A stretch of DNA of 42,894 bases from Clostridiales bacterium (GTDB lineage: Bacteria > Bacillota > Clostridia > Christensenellales > CAG-314): positions 1 through 42,894 of the forward strand of contig JAFLVL010000005.1 in assembly GCA_022508325.1 (NCBI GenBank), read 5' to 3'. A program made the translations under genes and the position numbers. This document shows positions 3,974 through 37,147 of this stretch, piece by piece. Under the pieces are notes generated by a model. It worked only from the letters and a program-made list of their open reading frames with translations, had not been told where the DNA came from and ran no database searches. Each line of letters opens with the position of its first letter. The stretch's first letter is position 1.

Positions 3974-3999
3974 TAAAATTTACGCAACTTTTACCAACT

Positions 4000-4025
4000 T
4001 TTCTCACCCCATATTAATTTTTTCG
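4000..4025 (-). repeat. Single copy of the ACCCCAT/A-run repeat at a gene end
   Basis: Minus strand: an A run, TTAAT, the core ATGGGGT (4006-4012), then GAGAAAAGTTG. The TAA stop of the ABC permease lies within the 5' half of the unit, as if the unit had been fused to the end of the gene. Confidence 0.5.
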
Positions 4026-10581: not shown

Positions 10582-12681
10582 TTATTCTCTTTTTAGGTCG
10601 AAGTCGATTTTGCACGCCTGTTTGTTGACAGACGCGACGGTGACGGTCACTGCGTCGCCAAGTGAGTATTTTACGCCCTCGCCGTAAAGGCAGAACTGCT
10701 CTCTGTTGTAGCTCAAGTGTTGCCCCAGCTTTTCGATTGAGATAAATCCCTCTACCGTATTGGGCAATTCAGCGTAAATACCGCGTTCGGTAACGCCGGA
10801 AATGAGCGCATCGAAACTCTGACCTATGAGATTTGCCGCATACGCGCACTTCTTGACGTCGTCGGCTTTGCGCTCGGCTTCGTCGGCAATTTTTTCGCGA
10901 ATTGAGGACTGTTTTGCCCCATCATACGCCATATCTTCATAAGCGCGAAGGGCTTTTTCCGTCATTTTGCCATTAATCGCCGTTTTCAATATACGGTGAA
11001 CGATTAAATCGGGATAGCGGCGTATAGGCGAGGTAAAGTGACAGTAGCAACGGCTTGCCAGTCCGAAATGCCCTATATTTACGTCGCTATACTTCGCCTT
11101 TTGCATTGTGCGTAGCATTACGTCGTTGACTAGGTTGAAATACGGCGTCTTTTCTGCCTGCAAAAGCGCGTCCTGCAATACGGAATTGTGGATTTCCTGC
11201 GAGTGTTTGACCTTGATACCTATGCCTTCAAGCAGCTTCAACAATAGCGCGAGTTTTTCCTCGTCGGGCTTTGCGTGAACGCGATAAACAAACGGGTAAC
11301 TACAATTTTCTGCGTATTCAGCTACACATTCGTTTGCCACAATCATAAATTCCTCTATCAATTGGTGAGAAAAGCTGTTGTCTGCAAGTACCACGTCAAT
11401 GACGTTGCCTCGGTCGTCGTGAACAAAGGTGACTTCTTTGGACGCGAACTCAATATTGCCACGCTTGTTGCGCTTGTTTTGCAAAATTTCCGCCAATTCC
11501 TTCATCGCAAGCAGGTCAACGGCAATATCGGCGTAACGAGCCTGCGTTTCGGCGTCACCGTCAAATATTGCCTGCACTGCCGTGTAGGTCAAACGGTGGC
11601 AACTGTGTATCACTGAAGGGAATACATCGTAGTCCAATACTTTACCTTGGGCGTTTACCGTCATTTCGCAAGTCAGTGTCAACCTGTCGACCCCCTCGTA
11701 TAGCGAGCAAATACCGTTGGAAAGCTCGCGCGGCAGCATTGGAAAGACCATCTCGGGAAAGTACACGCTAGTCCCGCGGTTGAATGCTTCCTTGTCGATT
11801 GCGCTACCGACATTGACGTAGTGAGATACGTCGGCAATGTGTACGCCGAGCTTAAAAGTGCCGTCGAAATTTCTTTCAATTGAAACAGCGTCGTCAAGGT
11901 CCTTAGCGTCCTCACCGTCGATTGTGAATATCTTACAAGCTCGCAAATCGCGTCTGCCAATTAATTCGCTTTCAGCAACGGTATGCGGCATCTTCTCGGC
12001 TTGTGATTTGCAATCAGGCGGAAAATCTTGCGTCAGGCGATAGGTTCTGGCAACCGCAGCCATATCGACGTTTTTCTCTCCGGGAAAACCGAGAACTTCT
12101 ACTATCTCTCCCTCGGGATTTTGCCTGTTATCTTGCGGAAAAAAGGTGATTTGCGCCACCACTTTTTGTCCGTTTTTCGCCCCCATGTCACGTTTTGGCA
12201 AAATATAAACGTCTTTTACAAACTTCTTGTCATCGGGAATTACGAAACGAGCGTTATTGCTTTTGTCGTAAGTGCCGACGATTTGTGTCATGCCGCGAGA
12301 GATGATTTTGACCACTTCCGCCTCGTCGCTTGCACCCGATACGCGCCGATAAAGCACGACGTCCTTGTGGAACGCGCCGTGAGTTTTTGACGCGGGCACG
12401 AACAAGTCTTCTCCGTCCTCGCGAATGAGAAATCCGAACCCGCGAGGGTTGCCTTGAAATTCCGCGCGGCCGTATTCACCGACTTTGACCAGACGGTATC
12501 TACGGTTGCGGGCGTCGAACACCATTTCGCAATCCTCTTCAAGTTGGTGTAGAATGTCGGCTACGGTTTTCCTCTCGGCAGTTGAATGCGTGTGAAGAAT
12601 ACCGTACAGCTGTTTGGCTGTAAAGTATTCGGCATCGATGTTTTTGATTATTTCCAGTATCTTATCTTTTAGTGTTTCCAT
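10582..12681 (-). CDS. rnr: Ribonuclease R
   Basis: About 699 residues. In order: N-terminal winged helix (ILEIIKNIDAEYFTAKQLYGIL), cold-shock OB folds (GRAEFQGNPRGFGFL; RFVIPDDKKFVKDVYI), the RNB exonuclease core with metal-binding aspartates in TIDGEDAKDLDDAVSI, then a C-terminal S1 domain (GQSFDALISGVTERGIYAEL) ending at FDLKRE without the Lys-rich tail seen in many homologues. It degrades structured RNA 3' to 5' and acts with tmRNA-SmpB. The ATG at 12681 is chosen; a TTG at 12708 lies in the T tract of the secG terminator. No good ribosome site is visible. Confidence 0.95.
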   Translation of the reverse strand: METLKDKILEIIKNIDAEYFTAKQLYGILHTHSTAERKTVADILHQLEEDCEMVFDARNRRYRLVKVGEYGRAEFQGNPRGFGFLIREDGEDLFVPASKTHGAFHKDVVLYRRVSGASDEAEVVKIISRGMTQIVGTYDKSNNARFVIPDDKKFVKDVYILPKRDMGAKNGQKVVAQITFFPQDNRQNPEGEIVEVLGFPGEKNVDMAAVARTYRLTQDFPPDCKSQAEKMPHTVAESELIGRRDLRACKIFTIDGEDAKDLDDAVSIERNFDGTFKLGVHIADVSHYVNVGSAIDKEAFNRGTSVYFPEMVFPMLPRELSNGICSLYEGVDRLTLTCEMTVNAQGKVLDYDVFPSVIHSCHRLTYTAVQAIFDGDAETQARYADIAVDLLAMKELAEILQNKRNKRGNIEFASKEVTFVHDDRGNVIDVVLADNSFSHQLIEEFMIVANECVAEYAENCSYPFVYRVHAKPDEEKLALLLKLLEGIGIKVKHSQEIHNSVLQDALLQAEKTPYFNLVNDVMLRTMQKAKYSDVNIGHFGLASRCYCHFTSPIRRYPDLIVHRILKTAINGKMTEKALRAYEDMAYDGAKQSSIREKIADEAERKADDVKKCAYAANLIGQSFDALISGVTERGIYAELPNTVEGFISIEKLGQHLSYNREQFCLYGEGVKYSLGDAVTVTVASVNKQACKIDFDLKRE

Positions 12682-14769: not shown

Positions 14770-14796
14770 ATTTTCTAACCCCATATCGCGAATTTA
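14770..14796 (-). repeat. Single ACCCCAT/A-run repeat between tpiA and gpmI
   Basis: Minus strand GCGATATGGGGTTAGAAAA; core ATGGGGT at 14778-14784. It lies in the operon gap, not in a gene. Confidence 0.45.
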
Positions 14797-17091: not shown

Positions 17092-18144
17092 TCATAAAAA
17101 CCATTTATCGTTGACGGCAATCGTCGGGTCGTTGGGAGCGATTGACTTGGCTATCTCATGGCAACGCGCGGCTTGCGCCCTATCTCCCAACTGCCAGTAG
17201 CACACCGAGAGCTGTAAATTGGGCAAAAACTTGGCGTAGTACTCGTTGACAAATCCGCTCTGATTATGGCACGCAAGAGCAAGGGTATACCAATGCGAAG
17301 CGTGTAGATAATTGCGTTCGGCGTAGTAGGTGTTTCCCAAAAGACAGCACACCTCACTGCTTGGTGGCATGACGGCAAGACTTCGCGTCAAATAAATGCG
17401 AGCTAGCGCCACGTTGGTTACGTTCATAGCCATGCGTGAGAGCAGCTTGTAGCACTCCACCCTGTCGGCACTGTAAGCTCGCGCATTAGACGCGAACTTT
17501 CTAAGTATCGTCAAAGCCTCGTCTGTTAAGCCACACTCCACAAGCGTCTTTCCGTAGTAAAATTTGTCGCGCAGGCTGAAGCGTCTGCCATTTTTTATGG
17601 CGTTGAGATAAATTGATAGGTTGCGTTGTTCGTGCGAGGCAGACGGACGGTGGCACACCTTGGCGTCTAAATATGCAACAGTTCCGAAAGGAATTATTGC
17701 CTCGTGAATGAAGCCTTTGAAGCGACAATTTTTAGTGCGTTTTACAATTCTTTCACGCCAGAACCAAAATGGAATTTGCGTGTCCATTTCGTATTTCATA
17801 TAGTAAAAATCTGCGTTTTCTTGCGCATTTTTCCACCCCATGTCAACTTTTTTCCACCCCATTATTAATTTTTGCGTTTCGAGAGGTACGATATCGTCGG
17901 CGTCAAGCCACATGATGTAGTCGCAAGTCGCTTTGCTGATTGCGTAGTTTCGAGCTTTGGAAAAATCGTCGCACCAAAGGAAATTGTAGACCCTGGTCGT
18001 GAAATTTTTGGCTACGGCTACGGTGCCGTCGGTCGAGCCTGTGTCAACTATTATCACTTCGTCGGCGAACGTCAACTGAGGCAACAGGCGGGCAAGATTA
18101 TCTTCTTCGTTTTTTACAATCAATGTAACAGATAGCGTTTTCAT
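17092..18144 (-). CDS. Family 2 glycosyltransferase with TPR-like C-terminus
   Basis: A 350-residue GT-A enzyme: LSVTLIVKNEEDNL start, IIVDTGSTDGT nucleotide loop (about 31-41), CDDFSKARNYAI, and the metal-binding DADD (81-84). FKGFIHEAI is typical of the GT2 subgroup with tetratricopeptide-like helices behind the catalytic domain; the C-terminal 170 residues look like such helices. The acceptor is unknown. Residues 95-105 read MGWKKVDMGWK, encoded by two tandem copies of the dispersed 21-bp repeat, inserted in a loop after the DADD helix. No ribosome site is seen; the start is provisional. Confidence 0.85.
   Translation of the reverse strand: MKTLSVTLIVKNEEDNLARLLPQLTFADEVIIVDTGSTDGTVAVAKNFTTRVYNFLWCDDFSKARNYAISKATCDYIMWLDADDIVPLETQKLIMGWKKVDMGWKNAQENADFYYMKYEMDTQIPFWFWRERIVKRTKNCRFKGFIHEAIIPFGTVAYLDAKVCHRPSASHEQRNLSIYLNAIKNGRRFSLRDKFYYGKTLVECGLTDEALTILRKFASNARAYSADRVECYKLLSRMAMNVTNVALARIYLTRSLAVMPPSSEVCCLLGNTYYAERNYLHASHWYTLALACHNQSGFVNEYYAKFLPNLQLSVCYWQLGDRAQAARCHEIAKSIAPNDPTIAVNDKWFL
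17827..17873 (-). repeat. Tandem 21-bp repeat pair inside the glycosyltransferase gene
   Basis: Two ACCCCAT cores at 17835-17841 and 17856-17862, exactly 21 bp apart, each followed (minus strand) by GGAAAAA. The layout matches the pair inside ispDF base for base at most positions, but is read in a different frame. Confidence 0.75.
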
Positions 18145-18269
18145 ACGTACAGAATATGCGAAAATTCAATCTTCTGCCAGTCATTCAATCGTTTTTTGTA
18201 GACTTGAATTTTTAATAACAACATTTTTAAAGTTTACATACATTGATAGAGAAACCTAAGGAGAAAGTT

Positions 18270-18770
18270 TTGAAACCGCTGATTTGCGATCTGCCCTACC
18301 CTTCAACCGACACACTTACAAAGGACGTGAGGAGCGGACAAATTATATCTTTTGCATACGCAACACTTCACGGCGAGCTGACGGCAACTTTGCAGTACGT
18401 CTACCACCATTTTTACTTTGGTGAAATGGACGAAAATGATGCAGAAATACTGATGGCAATTGCCAAAGCCGAGATGATGCACATCGACATTTTGGGGAAA
18501 GCGATGTTGAAGCTCGGAGTAAGTCCCAAATACGTACAAATGCCAAATACAAGCAATTTCTACAATACTTGCAGTGTGTCGCAGTCCACTACGCCGCAAA
18601 AAATGCTTATGGACGACATTCAGGGTGAATTAAATGCTATTGCGGACTATCAAAAAATGCTGTTTATACTGAAAAACGAGCTGGTTGAGGCAATTATTCA
18701 ACGAATTATCCTCGACGAGCAGCTACACCTTGAAAAATTGAAGGAAATGTTAAAAAAATACGCAAAATAA
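18270..18770 (+). CDS. Ferritin-like di-iron four-helix protein
   Basis: A 166-residue all-helical protein with ligands of a rubrerythrin/bacterioferritin-type di-iron centre: E36 (LHGELTATLQ), E68xxH71 (AKAEMMH), E120 (QGELNAIADY) and E150xxH153 (LDEQLH). This E, ExxH, E, ExxH pattern is what the superfamily uses. No rubredoxin domain is attached. It may handle peroxide or iron; the reaction is not certain. The TTG at 18270 is chosen because AAGGAG stands 6 nt before it, while the upstream TTG at 18243 has none. Monocistronic, convergent with ispDF. Confidence 0.85.
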   Translation: MKPLICDLPYPSTDTLTKDVRSGQIISFAYATLHGELTATLQYVYHHFYFGEMDENDAEILMAIAKAEMMHIDILGKAMLKLGVSPKYVQMPNTSNFYNTCSVSQSTTPQKMLMDDIQGELNAIADYQKMLFILKNELVEAIIQRIILDEQLHLEKLKEMLKKYAK

Positions 18771-18776
18771 AGAAAG

Positions 18777-18798
18777 AGGCTTGTTGCAAAACAAGCCT
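18777..18798 (+). terminator. Terminator after the ferritin-like gene
   Basis: GGCTTGTT and AACAAGCC form an 8-bp stem with loop GCAA, followed by TTGTTG, a weak U tract. Confidence 0.6.
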
Positions 18799-18938
18799 TG
18801 TTGCTAAAAACAAACTAAATTAGAATTGGTTTGAAGTGGTCAGAAGCGAGCAAGACGAGGCGCGAGCATTTTCATGGGGAGTGTTCTAATGCGTACACGA
18901 CCCGAAGAAAAGCGGAGCCTGACAATGTATTGCGACGC

Positions 18939-20018
18939 TTATGAACGCTTCAAAAGAGCCTCGGCGGAGACAGCGATGCCGTCGCCGTTACCTAGCGCTC
19001 CTAAGTGTTCGGTCGTAGTTGCAGAGATATTTACACAAAAAACGCTGATTTTAAGTATTTTTGAAAGCTTTTCTGCCATTTTTTCAATATATGGCGAGAT
19101 TTTGGGTTCTTGACATATCACGACTGCGGAAACGTTGACTATTTCGTAGCCACTTTCTGCTGCCATTTCGACACAGCGAGCGAGTAACTTCGTACTATCT
19201 ATTCCTTTATAGCGAGGGTCTGTATCGGGAAACTGATGACCGATGTCGCGACTACCTGACGCGGACAAAACAGCGTCGCAAACTGCATGACACAGCGCGT
19301 CAGCGTCGGAATGTCCCTTGAGCTTTTTGTTAAACGGAATTGAAACGCCACCGAGAATAACGCAATCGCCGCTAGCGAACGGATGAACGTCAAAGCCAAC
19401 GCCAATCTTATATTCGGGTAAATCCTCGGCGTAGGTTACTTTCGTATTGGAACGCAATCCGTCAACAAAATTCACTTCGCCGTAAGTTTCCAAATATAAC
19501 GTACTTTCATCGGGGTAGTCTGCCGTCGCGCTCTCTACTGCGTGACGTAGCTTTGCCAAATCAAAAACTTGGGGAGTTTGCACTGTAAAAAGTGCATTTC
19601 TGTCACATTTTTCGACCCCATGTCGATTTTTTTCTACCCCATATTCATTTTTTTGATAAATTGTATCCGTTACTGGCAAACTTGGGACGGCGCTACCGTG
19701 CCGTTCAGCTTCAAGAAAAAGACGCTCAACAAACGGTTTTGTTATGAACGGTCTCGCGCCGTCATGAATCGCAACTACGCCCTGAGCGTCATTAGCTAAT
19801 AAACGCAATCCGTTCTTTACAGATTGGAAACGCGTGTCTCCTCCCTCTGCAAAAACCGTTCCCTCAACACGCTGCCCCACTACGATTACGACGTCGGCGA
19901 CGTCTTTGAAAACGTCAACGGAATGTGTGAGGACGCTTTTGCCAAACAGCTGTGCGTTTAGCTTGTCTTTTCCAAATCGAGAGGCACTGCCGCCCGCAAC
20001 TATTATCGCGTATCTCAT
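18939..20018 (-). CDS. ispDF: Bifunctional IspD/IspF isoprenoid enzyme
   Basis: A 359-residue fusion. Residues 1-200 are IspD, which makes CDP-methylerythritol from CTP (AIIVAGGSASRFGKDK nucleotide loop, HDGARPF, PVTDTI, TVQTPQVF). Residues 204-359 are IspF, the cyclodiphosphate synthase (GVGFDVHPF zinc ligands, GHSDADALCHAVCDA, IGHQFPDTDP, ATTTEHLGALGNGDGI). Both belong to the MEP pathway. Residues 126-137 (YGVEKNRHGVEK) come from two copies of the dispersed 21-bp repeat and lengthen the loop between PVTDTI and TPQ. The start overlaps rqcP by 4 nt. Confidence 0.95.
   Translation of the reverse strand: MRYAIIVAGGSASRFGKDKLNAQLFGKSVLTHSVDVFKDVADVVIVVGQRVEGTVFAEGGDTRFQSVKNGLRLLANDAQGVVAIHDGARPFITKPFVERLFLEAERHGSAVPSLPVTDTIYQKNEYGVEKNRHGVEKCDRNALFTVQTPQVFDLAKLRHAVESATADYPDESTLYLETYGEVNFVDGLRSNTKVTYAEDLPEYKIGVGFDVHPFASGDCVILGGVSIPFNKKLKGHSDADALCHAVCDAVLSASGSRDIGHQFPDTDPRYKGIDSTKLLARCVEMAAESGYEIVNVSAVVICQEPKISPYIEKMAEKLSKILKISVFCVNISATTTEHLGALGNGDGIAVSAEALLKRS
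19607..19655 (-). repeat. Tandem 21-bp repeat pair inside ispDF
   Basis: ACCCCAT cores at 19615-19621 and 19636-19642, 21 bp apart, embedded in A/T runs. Same architecture as the pair in the glycosyltransferase gene, read in a different frame (YGVEKNR/HGVEK rather than MGWKKVD/MGWK). Confidence 0.75.
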
Positions 20019-22981: not shown

Positions 22982-23008
22982 ATTTTTCGCACCCCATGTC
23001 ACGTTTTT
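22982..23008 (-). repeat. Single ACCCCAT/A-run repeat at the sigma-factor stop codon
   Basis: Minus strand: the sigma stop TAA is followed at once by AAACGTGACATGGGGTGCGAAAAAT; core at 22991-22997. Confidence 0.5.
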
Positions 23009-23546: not shown

Positions 23547-24248
23547 TCAGCCTCTCTGTCGTACTACCTCGTACAAAGCTATTCCGCACGCAACCGACGC
23601 GTTCAAGGAATTGACCTTGCCTTTGAGCTTCAGCGATACCACGCCGTCGCAACATTTCTTAGTGTAAGCCGATATGCCGTCCCCTTCGCTACCTACCACT
23701 ATGGCTACTGCGCCTGTTAGATTGGCGGTAGCTATTTCCTGTCCGTCCATATCCAGCGCGTACACCCAAACGCCATTGTCTTGTAGCTGCTTTATCGCGT
23801 TGTTGACATTCACTACGCGGGCAATCTTGACGTGAGACACAGCCCCTGCAGAACACCGCGTAACCGTATCTGTAACCGCTACTTGACGGTTGCGCCCAAT
23901 AATTATGCCGTCAACTCCTGCACATTCTGCGGCGCGAATGATACTGCCGAAATTGTGCGGGTCGTTGATTCCGTCAAGCACCACTATAAATGGCGTATCC
24001 GAGCTTGCCAGAATTTCTTCAAGCTCGCAATAGTCAAAGTCGGTCACGTCGGCAATGTAACCCTGATGTCTGCCTTCTATGCTGGCTTTGTCGAGCACTG
24101 CCCTGTCAACATAGGAGATTTTGACCCCCTTTTGCCGCGCGAGAGCAACTATGGTATTCGCCGTTCCCTTCTCACACATAAGCGTGTTTACGGTGACGGT
24201 GTCTGATTTCAATGCTTCGAGAACGCTGTTTCTTCCTTCTATTTTCAT
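23547..24248 (-). CDS. rlmB: 23S rRNA 2'-O-methyltransferase RlmB (SpoU family)
   Basis: A 233-residue SPOUT methyltransferase. N-terminal substrate-binding part GRNSVLEALKSD, then motif 1 VLDGINDPHNFGSIIRAAEC, motif 2 VAIVVGSEGDGIS and motif 3 LKGKVNSLNASVACGIALYE, which together form the knotted AdoMet site. RlmB methylates G2251-equivalent ribose in 23S rRNA. Its start overlaps the mrnC stop by 4 nt. Gene order mrnC-rlmB-sigma is conserved in Firmicutes. Confidence 0.95.
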   Translation of the reverse strand: MKIEGRNSVLEALKSDTVTVNTLMCEKGTANTIVALARQKGVKISYVDRAVLDKASIEGRHQGYIADVTDFDYCELEEILASSDTPFIVVLDGINDPHNFGSIIRAAECAGVDGIIIGRNRQVAVTDTVTRCSAGAVSHVKIARVVNVNNAIKQLQDNGVWVYALDMDGQEIATANLTGAVAIVVGSEGDGISAYTKKCCDGVVSLKLKGKVNSLNASVACGIALYEVVRQRG

Positions 24249-24631
24249 TTGTCGTTCAATAACTCCACTATTCGCTCGTGCTGTCCTGTGAGATACAAGT
24301 ATCCCAGTACCGCCTCTAACCCTGTTGCTTTGCGGTAATCGGCTATGGTCTGATTCTTCGCCTTGTGGTGCGCTTTGGCGTTGCGGCCACGCAGATAGAC
24401 AGATTTTTCCGTTTCGGTTAGGCGAACTTCCAAATTTTCAATAAGAATTGCCTGCGACGCTGCTTTGACTTCGGCTGAAGCGAGCGTATGCAAGGCATCA
24501 GGCTTGAATTGAACGCCGGTTAGTAGTCGTTCGCGAACGAACAGACTATGCACGGCGTCGCCGACGTAGGCAAGCGACAATGCGGACATGAGCAAGGCGT
24601 CTTTTTCGCTAATGGGGGTGAAAAAATTCAT
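24245..24631 (-). CDS. mrnC: Mini-ribonuclease III
   Basis: A 128-residue RNase III catalytic domain without a dsRNA-binding domain. LAYVGDAVHSLFVRERL carries the acidic metal-binding motif; GRNAKAHHKAKNQTIADYRKATGLEAVLGYLYL carries the conserved helix with the second Glu. Mini-III matures 23S rRNA in Firmicutes. The ATG at 24631 follows the upstream GNAT stop by one base; an ATG at 24661 would overlap that gene by 29 nt. It overlaps rlmB by 4 nt. Confidence 0.93.
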   Translation of the reverse strand: MNFFTPISEKDALLMSALSLAYVGDAVHSLFVRERLLTGVQFKPDALHTLASAEVKAASQAILIENLEVRLTETEKSVYLRGRNAKAHHKAKNQTIADYRKATGLEAVLGYLYLTGQHERIVELLNDK

Positions 24632-25324: not shown

Positions 25325-25443
25325 CGGCGAGGGTGTTCGGCAATACTATCACCAACTTTTTATAGCCATCTTTTTATGTAGAAGAGGGTTTTCGTGTGTG
25401 GCGCCTAGCGTAGCTCGAAGTCCACACACGAACACCCGAGCCG
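25325..25443 (+). repeat. Structured GA/GA hairpin element, copy B (composite)
   Basis: The 322-nt gap 25206-25527 holds this element, a promoter and a terminator. Outer pairing: CGGC (25325-25328) with GCCG (25440-25443), GA opposite GA, then GGGTGTTCG (25331-25339) with CGAACACCC (25429-25437), nine perfect pairs. A second left arm, GAGGGTTTTCGTGTGTGG (25384-25401), competes for the same right arm and closes a 20-nt loop CGCCTAGC...CTCGAAGT nearly identical to copy A. The 45 nt between the two left arms look unrelated. Confidence 0.7.
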
Positions 25444-32754: not shown

Positions 32755-32820
32755 CGGCGAGGGTGTTCGGCTGGGGCGCATTACAAAGCACCTAAGTCCC
32801 CCGACGAATACCTGAGCCGC
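32755..32820 (+). repeat. Structured GA/GA hairpin element, copy D
   Basis: CGGC (32755-32758) pairs with GCCG (32816-32819), GA faces GA, and GGGTGTTCG (32761-32769) pairs with CGAATACCT (32805-32813) with two G-U pairs. The apical stem GGGG/CCCC closes a loop CGCATTAC...CCTAAGT related to those of copies A and B. It lies between convergent genes, beyond the terminator of the upstream pair. Confidence 0.72.
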
Positions 32821-32821
32821 G

Positions 32822-32852
32822 AGTGGTCGGAAAAATAGACATGGGGTGAGTT
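32822..32852 (+). repeat. ACCCCAT/A-run repeat abutting element D
   Basis: GTGGTCGGAAAAATAGAC is followed by ATGGGGTGAG (core 32841-32847), ending at the stop codon of the minus-strand membrane gene. The first half recurs as CTATTTTTCCGACCAC at 41044-41059. Confidence 0.5.
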
Positions 32853-32855
32853 TTA

Positions 32856-37023: not shown

Positions 37024-37066
37024 GAAAATCAATGGTTGTACTGATAGCATTTGTGTGTAAAAAACG

Positions 37067-37105
37067 AAATGGGTTAAGATTTTTAAAAATTGTCTCAACC
37101 CATTT
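37067..37105 (-). terminator. GH2 gene terminator, possibly bidirectional
   Basis: AAATGGGTT and AACCCATTT form a perfect 9-bp base with a long inner A/T-rich loop; T runs stand on both sides in the respective strands. Confidence 0.7.
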
Positions 37106-37147
37106 GCATTTTTTGTTGTGAGTGACCGAGGCTCAACCACCGCGCGG

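Follow-up and report, generated by a model that had tools for sequence, protein, structure and literature searches.

Putative DNA-wrapping sites with a nearly invariant core and helically phased flanks in the genome of an uncultured clostridium

The tandem repeats found in two genes of a clostridial contig belong to a motif dispersed over the genome, and we interpret its copies as putative sites of a DNA-wrapping protein involved in chromosome architecture or topology (probability about 0.6). The window, i.e. the whole stretch of 42,894 nucleotides analysed here, corresponds to contig C45 of a metagenome-assembled genome of 1.31 Mb (77 contigs, 77% complete), hereafter G000. Its nearest named relatives are the metagenome-assembled genomes Clostridiales bacterium HAN105, HAN102 and HAN103. 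The genome designated G021 is its nearest relative among the congeneric genomes compared.

Genome-wide motif and its conservation between species

All contigs of G000 were scanned with an iterated weight matrix covering 26 positions. The consensus of this 26-base site is AAAAA-YGCGAC-ATGGGGTGAG-AAAAA, with ATGGGGT as an asymmetric, nearly invariant core. The initial annotation had raised the question of whether the repeated unit is any more frequent over the genome than expected by chance: at a score giving about 5 sites in an order-4 Markov genome, G000 contains 163 sites (about 1 per 8 kb). The sequences ACCCCATGTC and TTTTCTCACCCCAT are found 77-fold and about 4000-fold over the order-3 expectation, respectively. 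Although 86% of the genome is coding, 97 sites are intergenic and 66 (about 40%) are located in genes. The sites of the window are listed in Table 1.

Table 1. Motif sites detected in the window, with positions given in window coordinates.
Location	Position	Strand	Sequence	Score	Remarks
3' end of transport gene	3998..4023	-	AAAAAATTAATATGGGGTGAGAAAAG	28.3	single site
within RNase R-like gene	12172..12197	-	CAAAACGTGACATGGGGGCGAAAAAC	24.6	
intergenic, tpiA / gpmI	14770..14795	-	AAATTCGCGATATGGGGTTAGAAAAT	32.0	single site
glycosyltransferase gene, added copy	17827..17852	-	AAAAAGTTGACATGGGGTGGAAAAAT	31.3	7 extra residues in G000 only
glycosyltransferase gene, older copy	17848..17873	-	AAAAATTAATAATGGGGTGGAAAAAA	24.0	native LMGWK codons
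ispDF, added copy	19607..19632	-	AAAAAATCGACATGGGGTCGAAAAAT	32.2	
ispDF, older copy	19628..19653	-	AAAAAATGAATATGGGGTAGAAAAAA	27.7	G021 AAAAAATGAACATGGGGTAGGGAAAA (27.1) at same gene coordinate
intergenic, dnaX / sigma-factor-like gene	22983..23008	-	AAAAACGTGACATGGGGTGCGAAAAA	32.7	single site
convergent gap	32830..32855	+	GAAAAATAGACATGGGGTGAGTTTTA	21.9	single site
left partner of tail-to-tail pair, 34 bp apart	37058..37083	+		17.8	weak site
right partner of the same pair	37089..37114	-		20.0	weak site; G021 site at lifted position

In G021, about 100 sites were detected in 780 kb. When the sites of G000 were lifted to G021 via orthologous genes, 27 of 78 were at most 100 bp from a G021 site (2.3 expected) and 44 at most 500 bp (11 expected). 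The G021 counterpart of the tpiA-gpmI gap also carries a site (score 32.8), with unchanged orientation and almost the same relative coordinate, and the clpP-clpX gap contains a site in G000, in G021 and, by coordinates, in G006.

The exact pattern was counted 43 times in G000, 35 in G021, 19 in G020 and 9 in G008, at most 4 times in each of the other 21 congeners, and 0 to 3 times in the other sampled genomes of the order. The putative site system is restricted to some members of a single genus of uncultured Clostridia. Exact copies are few even in G011 and G024, two close relatives, which suggests either a patchy system or a drift of its sequence. A species-specific expansion was considered, as one 14-mer occurs 25 times in G000 and 0 to 3 times in the congeners, and was rejected: this count is misleading, the motif of G021 having mostly GGG or GGA in place of GAG.

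Two other types of sequence were observed in the window. Separate imperfect palindromes of 55-60 bp (GAGGGTGTTCGGCTGGGGCGCATTGCGTAGCACCTAAGTCCCCAGACGAATACCCGAG) are located at 32759-32816 and 25329-25440. With a loose pattern, this family counts 24 complete copies in the genome, none of them in a gene longer than 300 nt and several at contig ends, where the assembly breaks; it resembles a REP- or MITE-type hairpin. A GC-rich intergenic stretch follows the ferritin-like gene (18815-18940; AGAAGCGAGCAAGACGAGGCGCGAGC), and a 19-mer of it occurs three times in the genome.

Tandem cores in two window genes and origin of the in-gene sites

The sequence ATGGGGTnGAAAAA is present twice, 21 bp apart, both in the glycosyltransferase gene and in ispDF. 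The initial annotation had described in each of these genes two ACCCCAT cores exactly 21 bp apart, read in different frames with both proteins remaining open. This description is accurate: a search of the window for ACCCCAT-N14-ACCCCAT yields these two matches only (17835-17862 and 19615-19642), none being found in 100 shuffled versions, and the reading of both coding strands confirms the different frames and the two open reading frames. On its coding (minus) strand, the glycosyltransferase gene contains ATGGGGTGGAAAAA-AGTTGAC-ATGGGGTGGAAAAA, and ispDF, also on the minus strand, contains ATGGGGTAGAAAAA-AATCGAC-ATGGGGTCGAAAAA.

The IspDF protein of G000 has 7 more residues than all 21 congeneric proteins aligned and the glycosyltransferase 7 more than all 16, with a variation of 1-3 residues at the gap in a few of these sequences. 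In IspD, the segment between PVTDTI and TPQ had been supposed to be lengthened, and the additional residues are indeed found between PVTDTI and VQTPQ; the length of this stretch varies among congeners and is shorter in a solved IspDF homologue. Predicted secondary structure does not exceed background in one of the two window stretches and is modest in the second. The extra 21 bp correspond to positions 17828-17848 or, equivalently, 17842-17862 in the glycosyltransferase gene, and to positions 19608-19628 or, equivalently, 19622-19642 in ispDF.

In the codon alignments, the glycosyltransferase site reads ATG GGG TGG AAA in most of the congeners shown, and the ispDF site of G021 reads CAT GGG GTA GGG AAA. 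The ancestral core is ATGGGGTGGAAAAA in the glycosyltransferase gene (most congeners) and CATGGGGTAGGGAAAA in ispDF (nearest relative G021). The LMGWK codons of the older glycosyltransferase copy are kept in most congeners, motif-poor species included, and a full-scoring site of G021 is located at the same ispDF coordinate as the upstream copy of G000. Since the core is already encoded there by the congeners or by G021, one copy per gene is, as judged from these alignments, old and the other new, G000 having gained a second, phased copy. The earlier idea that the segment is an insertion relative to orthologues holds for the 21 bp added to each gene, but not for the pair, of which only one copy is new. 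In the simplest account, a short tandem duplication beside the existing site would have placed the second core two turns away, and drift or selection would then have moved the upstream bases (AGTTGAC and AATCGAC) toward the consensus GCGAC.

Of the 24 in-gene sites with a good orthologue in G021, seven are conserved, 11 are absent without any gap and six are included in gapped alignments. Four of these six sites form the two window pairs, which alone are clean 21-bp additions. For the 11 sites absent from G021, 36% of the residues encoded under the site are identical, as opposed to 76% of those beside it, a contrast that is partly built in because sites were picked as present in one genome and absent from the other; the lack of gaps is not built in. 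The comparison being between G000 and G021, each of these 11 differences may represent a gain in the former or a loss in the latter. As most of the aligned in-gene sites show no length change relative to G021, the alignments indicate that in-gene sites mostly arise by substitution.

Pair geometry, helical phasing and chromosomal placement

Close pairs of sites in G000 display preferred spacings: 21 bp (6 pairs) or 22 bp for tandem pairs, 17-18 bp for 8 of 9 head-to-head pairs and 33-35 bp for 7 of 9 tail-to-tail pairs. These fixed spacings are frequent in G000 only. The spacing of 21 bp, which represents two helical turns, is also found in intergenic pairs, and the 21-bp step observed in the window is therefore not merely a means of keeping the reading frame. 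All preferred spacings fit one helical frame set by the phasing of AT-rich segments.

The AT fraction of the DNA surrounding single sites has maxima near -42, -30, -18, -8, 0, +12, +22, +31 and +45, symmetrically about the core. In G000 as in G021, this periodicity of ~10.5 bp extends for about 55 bp on each side; it is clear from 16 bp and weak past about 55 bp. In the flanks, at a distance of 16-48 bp, the AT oscillation with a period of 10.7 bp has an amplitude of 0.131 in G000 (71 singletons) and 0.111 in G021 (77 singletons). As a control, 962 loci with the same A-tract spacing and without the motif were sampled 2000 times, and gave 0.022 on average and 0.059 at most; the amplitude at single sites is thus five to six times that of the matched control. 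It is equal for intergenic (0.130) and in-gene (0.134) sites. This phasing probably reflects wrapping of the DNA around a protein.

Among the intergenic sites of G000, 24 are located in convergent gaps (12.5 expected). Over G000 and G021 together, convergent gaps contain 33 sites for 17.1 expected (P=2e-4). Divergent gaps are depleted, with 11 sites for 16.9 expected. Because convergent gaps are enriched and divergent gaps depleted, a role as promoter element is unlikely. Sites are also unevenly distributed at a larger scale: no site was detected in many contigs of 10-42 kb, and G021 displays dense blocks interspersed with empty ones. Regional densities are correlated between the two genomes (Spearman 0.53, P=0.001). 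Contigs carrying translation and transcription genes, e.g. C8 and C29, are among the site-poor blocks, and some translation-gene blocks are almost site-free.

Few or no sites were observed in G000 contigs C56, C67, C76, C77, C2, C5 and others, and in the first 180 kb of G021 contig C1, some of these blocks being syntenic between the species. On G000 contig C20, a site or a pair is found every 1.5-4 kb over dnaJ-dnaK-grpE-hrcA and the following genes, mostly in gaps. A polar, KOPS-like role was rejected, the strand bias being weak in the dense part of G021 (about 30 vs 53). A simple domain centred on the origin or the terminus was likewise rejected: on G021 contig C1, dnaA is located at 832 kb, the skew switches near 200 kb, and dense and empty blocks alternate.

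Candidate proteins, alternative readings and known systems

Several known DNA-binding proteins were considered as candidates. ParB was rejected, as canonical parS (TGTTTCACGTGAAACA) is present near parAB and is distinct from the site motif: on contig C34, two exact and two one-mismatch parS (23681-24355) are located in the dnaA-parAB region, within ~3.5 kb where no gene was called. Between parA and mnmE, G000 has four sites of the motif. Lrp/AsnC wrapping sites were also discarded, no Lrp/AsnC protein being found in 25 congeneric genomes by a search that matched 11 of 14 control genomes. An HU/IHF-family gene was detected with PF00216 in only 12 of the 25 congeners, most assemblies being more than 90% complete. 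No PF00216 match was obtained in the motif-bearing G020 and G008 (assemblies 97% and 95% complete), and HU/IHF sites were rejected since the presence of HU does not track the motif. Gyrase is present, with a GyrA box in contig C16.

Gyrase, which fits both the wrap and the convergent placement, is the leading named alternative. The sites would then be strong DNA gyrase sites (wrap of about 130 bp), evolved as preferred places of gyrase binding in regions where positive supercoils accumulate through transcription. Topo-Seq in E. coli revealed a symmetric gyrase motif of 130 bp with a GC phasing of 10.75 bp, as well as an enrichment in BIME-2 and in regions that follow transcribed units (PMC6379681). 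The phasing observed here is likewise symmetric, of similar period and about 55 bp long on each side, convergent gaps are preferred, and gyrase occurs universally, in contrast to Lrp/AsnC, which is absent, and to HU, which does not follow the motif. However, an extensive and degenerate motif has been described for gyrase, whereas the core ATGGGGT hardly varies and is asymmetric; the site motif is confined to a few species of one genus; and C8 and C29, with their translation and transcription genes, are among the site-poor blocks. We therefore prefer another wrapping protein, the core being too strict and too clade-limited for the degenerate gyrase motif, and we consider the gyrase reading possible but rather unlikely.

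The other alternatives are still less probable. The initial annotation had compared the repeats with Rickettsia palindromic elements, and a small mobile palindromic element of this type, or a MITE, inserting in genes would account for dispersed copies far in excess of the Markov expectation, some of them in inverted pairs, and for the 21 bp gained in two genes. Against it, 18 of the 24 in-gene sites are in ungapped alignments with G021, the added copies adjoin an ancestral core, intergenic sites hold their positions between species, and the copies have neither a common body nor common ends, similarity stopping near the core except for the AT phasing, which extends over about 110 bp at single sites. 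This reading is largely refuted and we regard it as very improbable. Operators of a global transcription regulator would agree with about 150 mostly intergenic sites, and the half-sites of AraC/XylS-type regulators also occur in tandem with a 21-bp spacing; the depletion of divergent, promoter-bearing gaps, the twofold excess in convergent gaps and the location of about 40% of the sites within genes make such operators improbable. DNA uptake signals of a transformation system would agree with a dispersed and lineage-specific motif that occurs within genes, at 3' ends and sometimes as inverted pairs. At about 1 per 8 kb, the sites are nevertheless missing from long core-gene blocks, and they are phased over ~110 bp whereas uptake signals are not known to be helically phased; we give this explanation hardly any credit.

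In the preferred reading of a wrapping protein, the core YGCGAC-ATGGGGTGAG would be read directly between two A-tracts two helical turns apart, and the phased AT-rich minor grooves, about 55 bp on each side, would allow some 110 bp to curve around the protein. Around 150 such sites would occur across parts of the chromosome, with 3' ends and convergent gaps as the main locations and in-gene sites where the coding sequence is compatible with the motif. The in-frame addition of 21 bp would double a pre-existing site, and with both cores facing the same side of the helix a higher occupancy would be expected. Site-free blocks of 20-40 kb or more count against this reading and are fitted by none of the models. 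The scarcity of exact copies in G011 and G024 and the frequency of fixed pair spacings in G000 only also count against it. A more specific proposal is that a small clade of gut Clostridia possesses a new sequence-specific DNA-wrapping chromosome organiser with ~150 nucleosome-like sites, many of them in genes, and that the DNA shape it requires has altered and extended the sequences of proteins such as IspD; we advance it tentatively, with somewhat less than even odds. Known cases of sequence-defined wrapping of about 110 bp with nucleosome-like phasing are rare in bacteria, the best known being gyrase, whose motif is degenerate. If the proposal is correct, it would represent a new mode of bacterial chromosome organisation, found from sequence alone, and in the in-gene sites selection on DNA, not protein function, would set amino acids, including in-frame additions in a conserved metabolic enzyme.

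Compared with known systems, the sites resemble the gyrase sites of E. coli, the Mu SGS and BIME-2 by a symmetric helical phasing over more than 100 bp (10.75 bp in E. coli) and, apparently, by their location downstream of genes; they differ by the strict asymmetric core, the distribution in part of one genus and the quantised double sites. Rickettsia palindromic elements are mobile and palindromic, with lengths of roughly 100 bp or above. They likewise add in-frame residues to unrelated proteins, whereas here a phased addition of 21 bp stands beside an existing site and most in-gene copies are without gap. Finally, as for the NBS of Noc and the sites of SlmA and MatP, many sequence-specific sites cover parts of the chromosome without being tied to promoters; in contrast to these systems, the sites described here carry a wrap signature and are not simply centred on the origin or the terminus.
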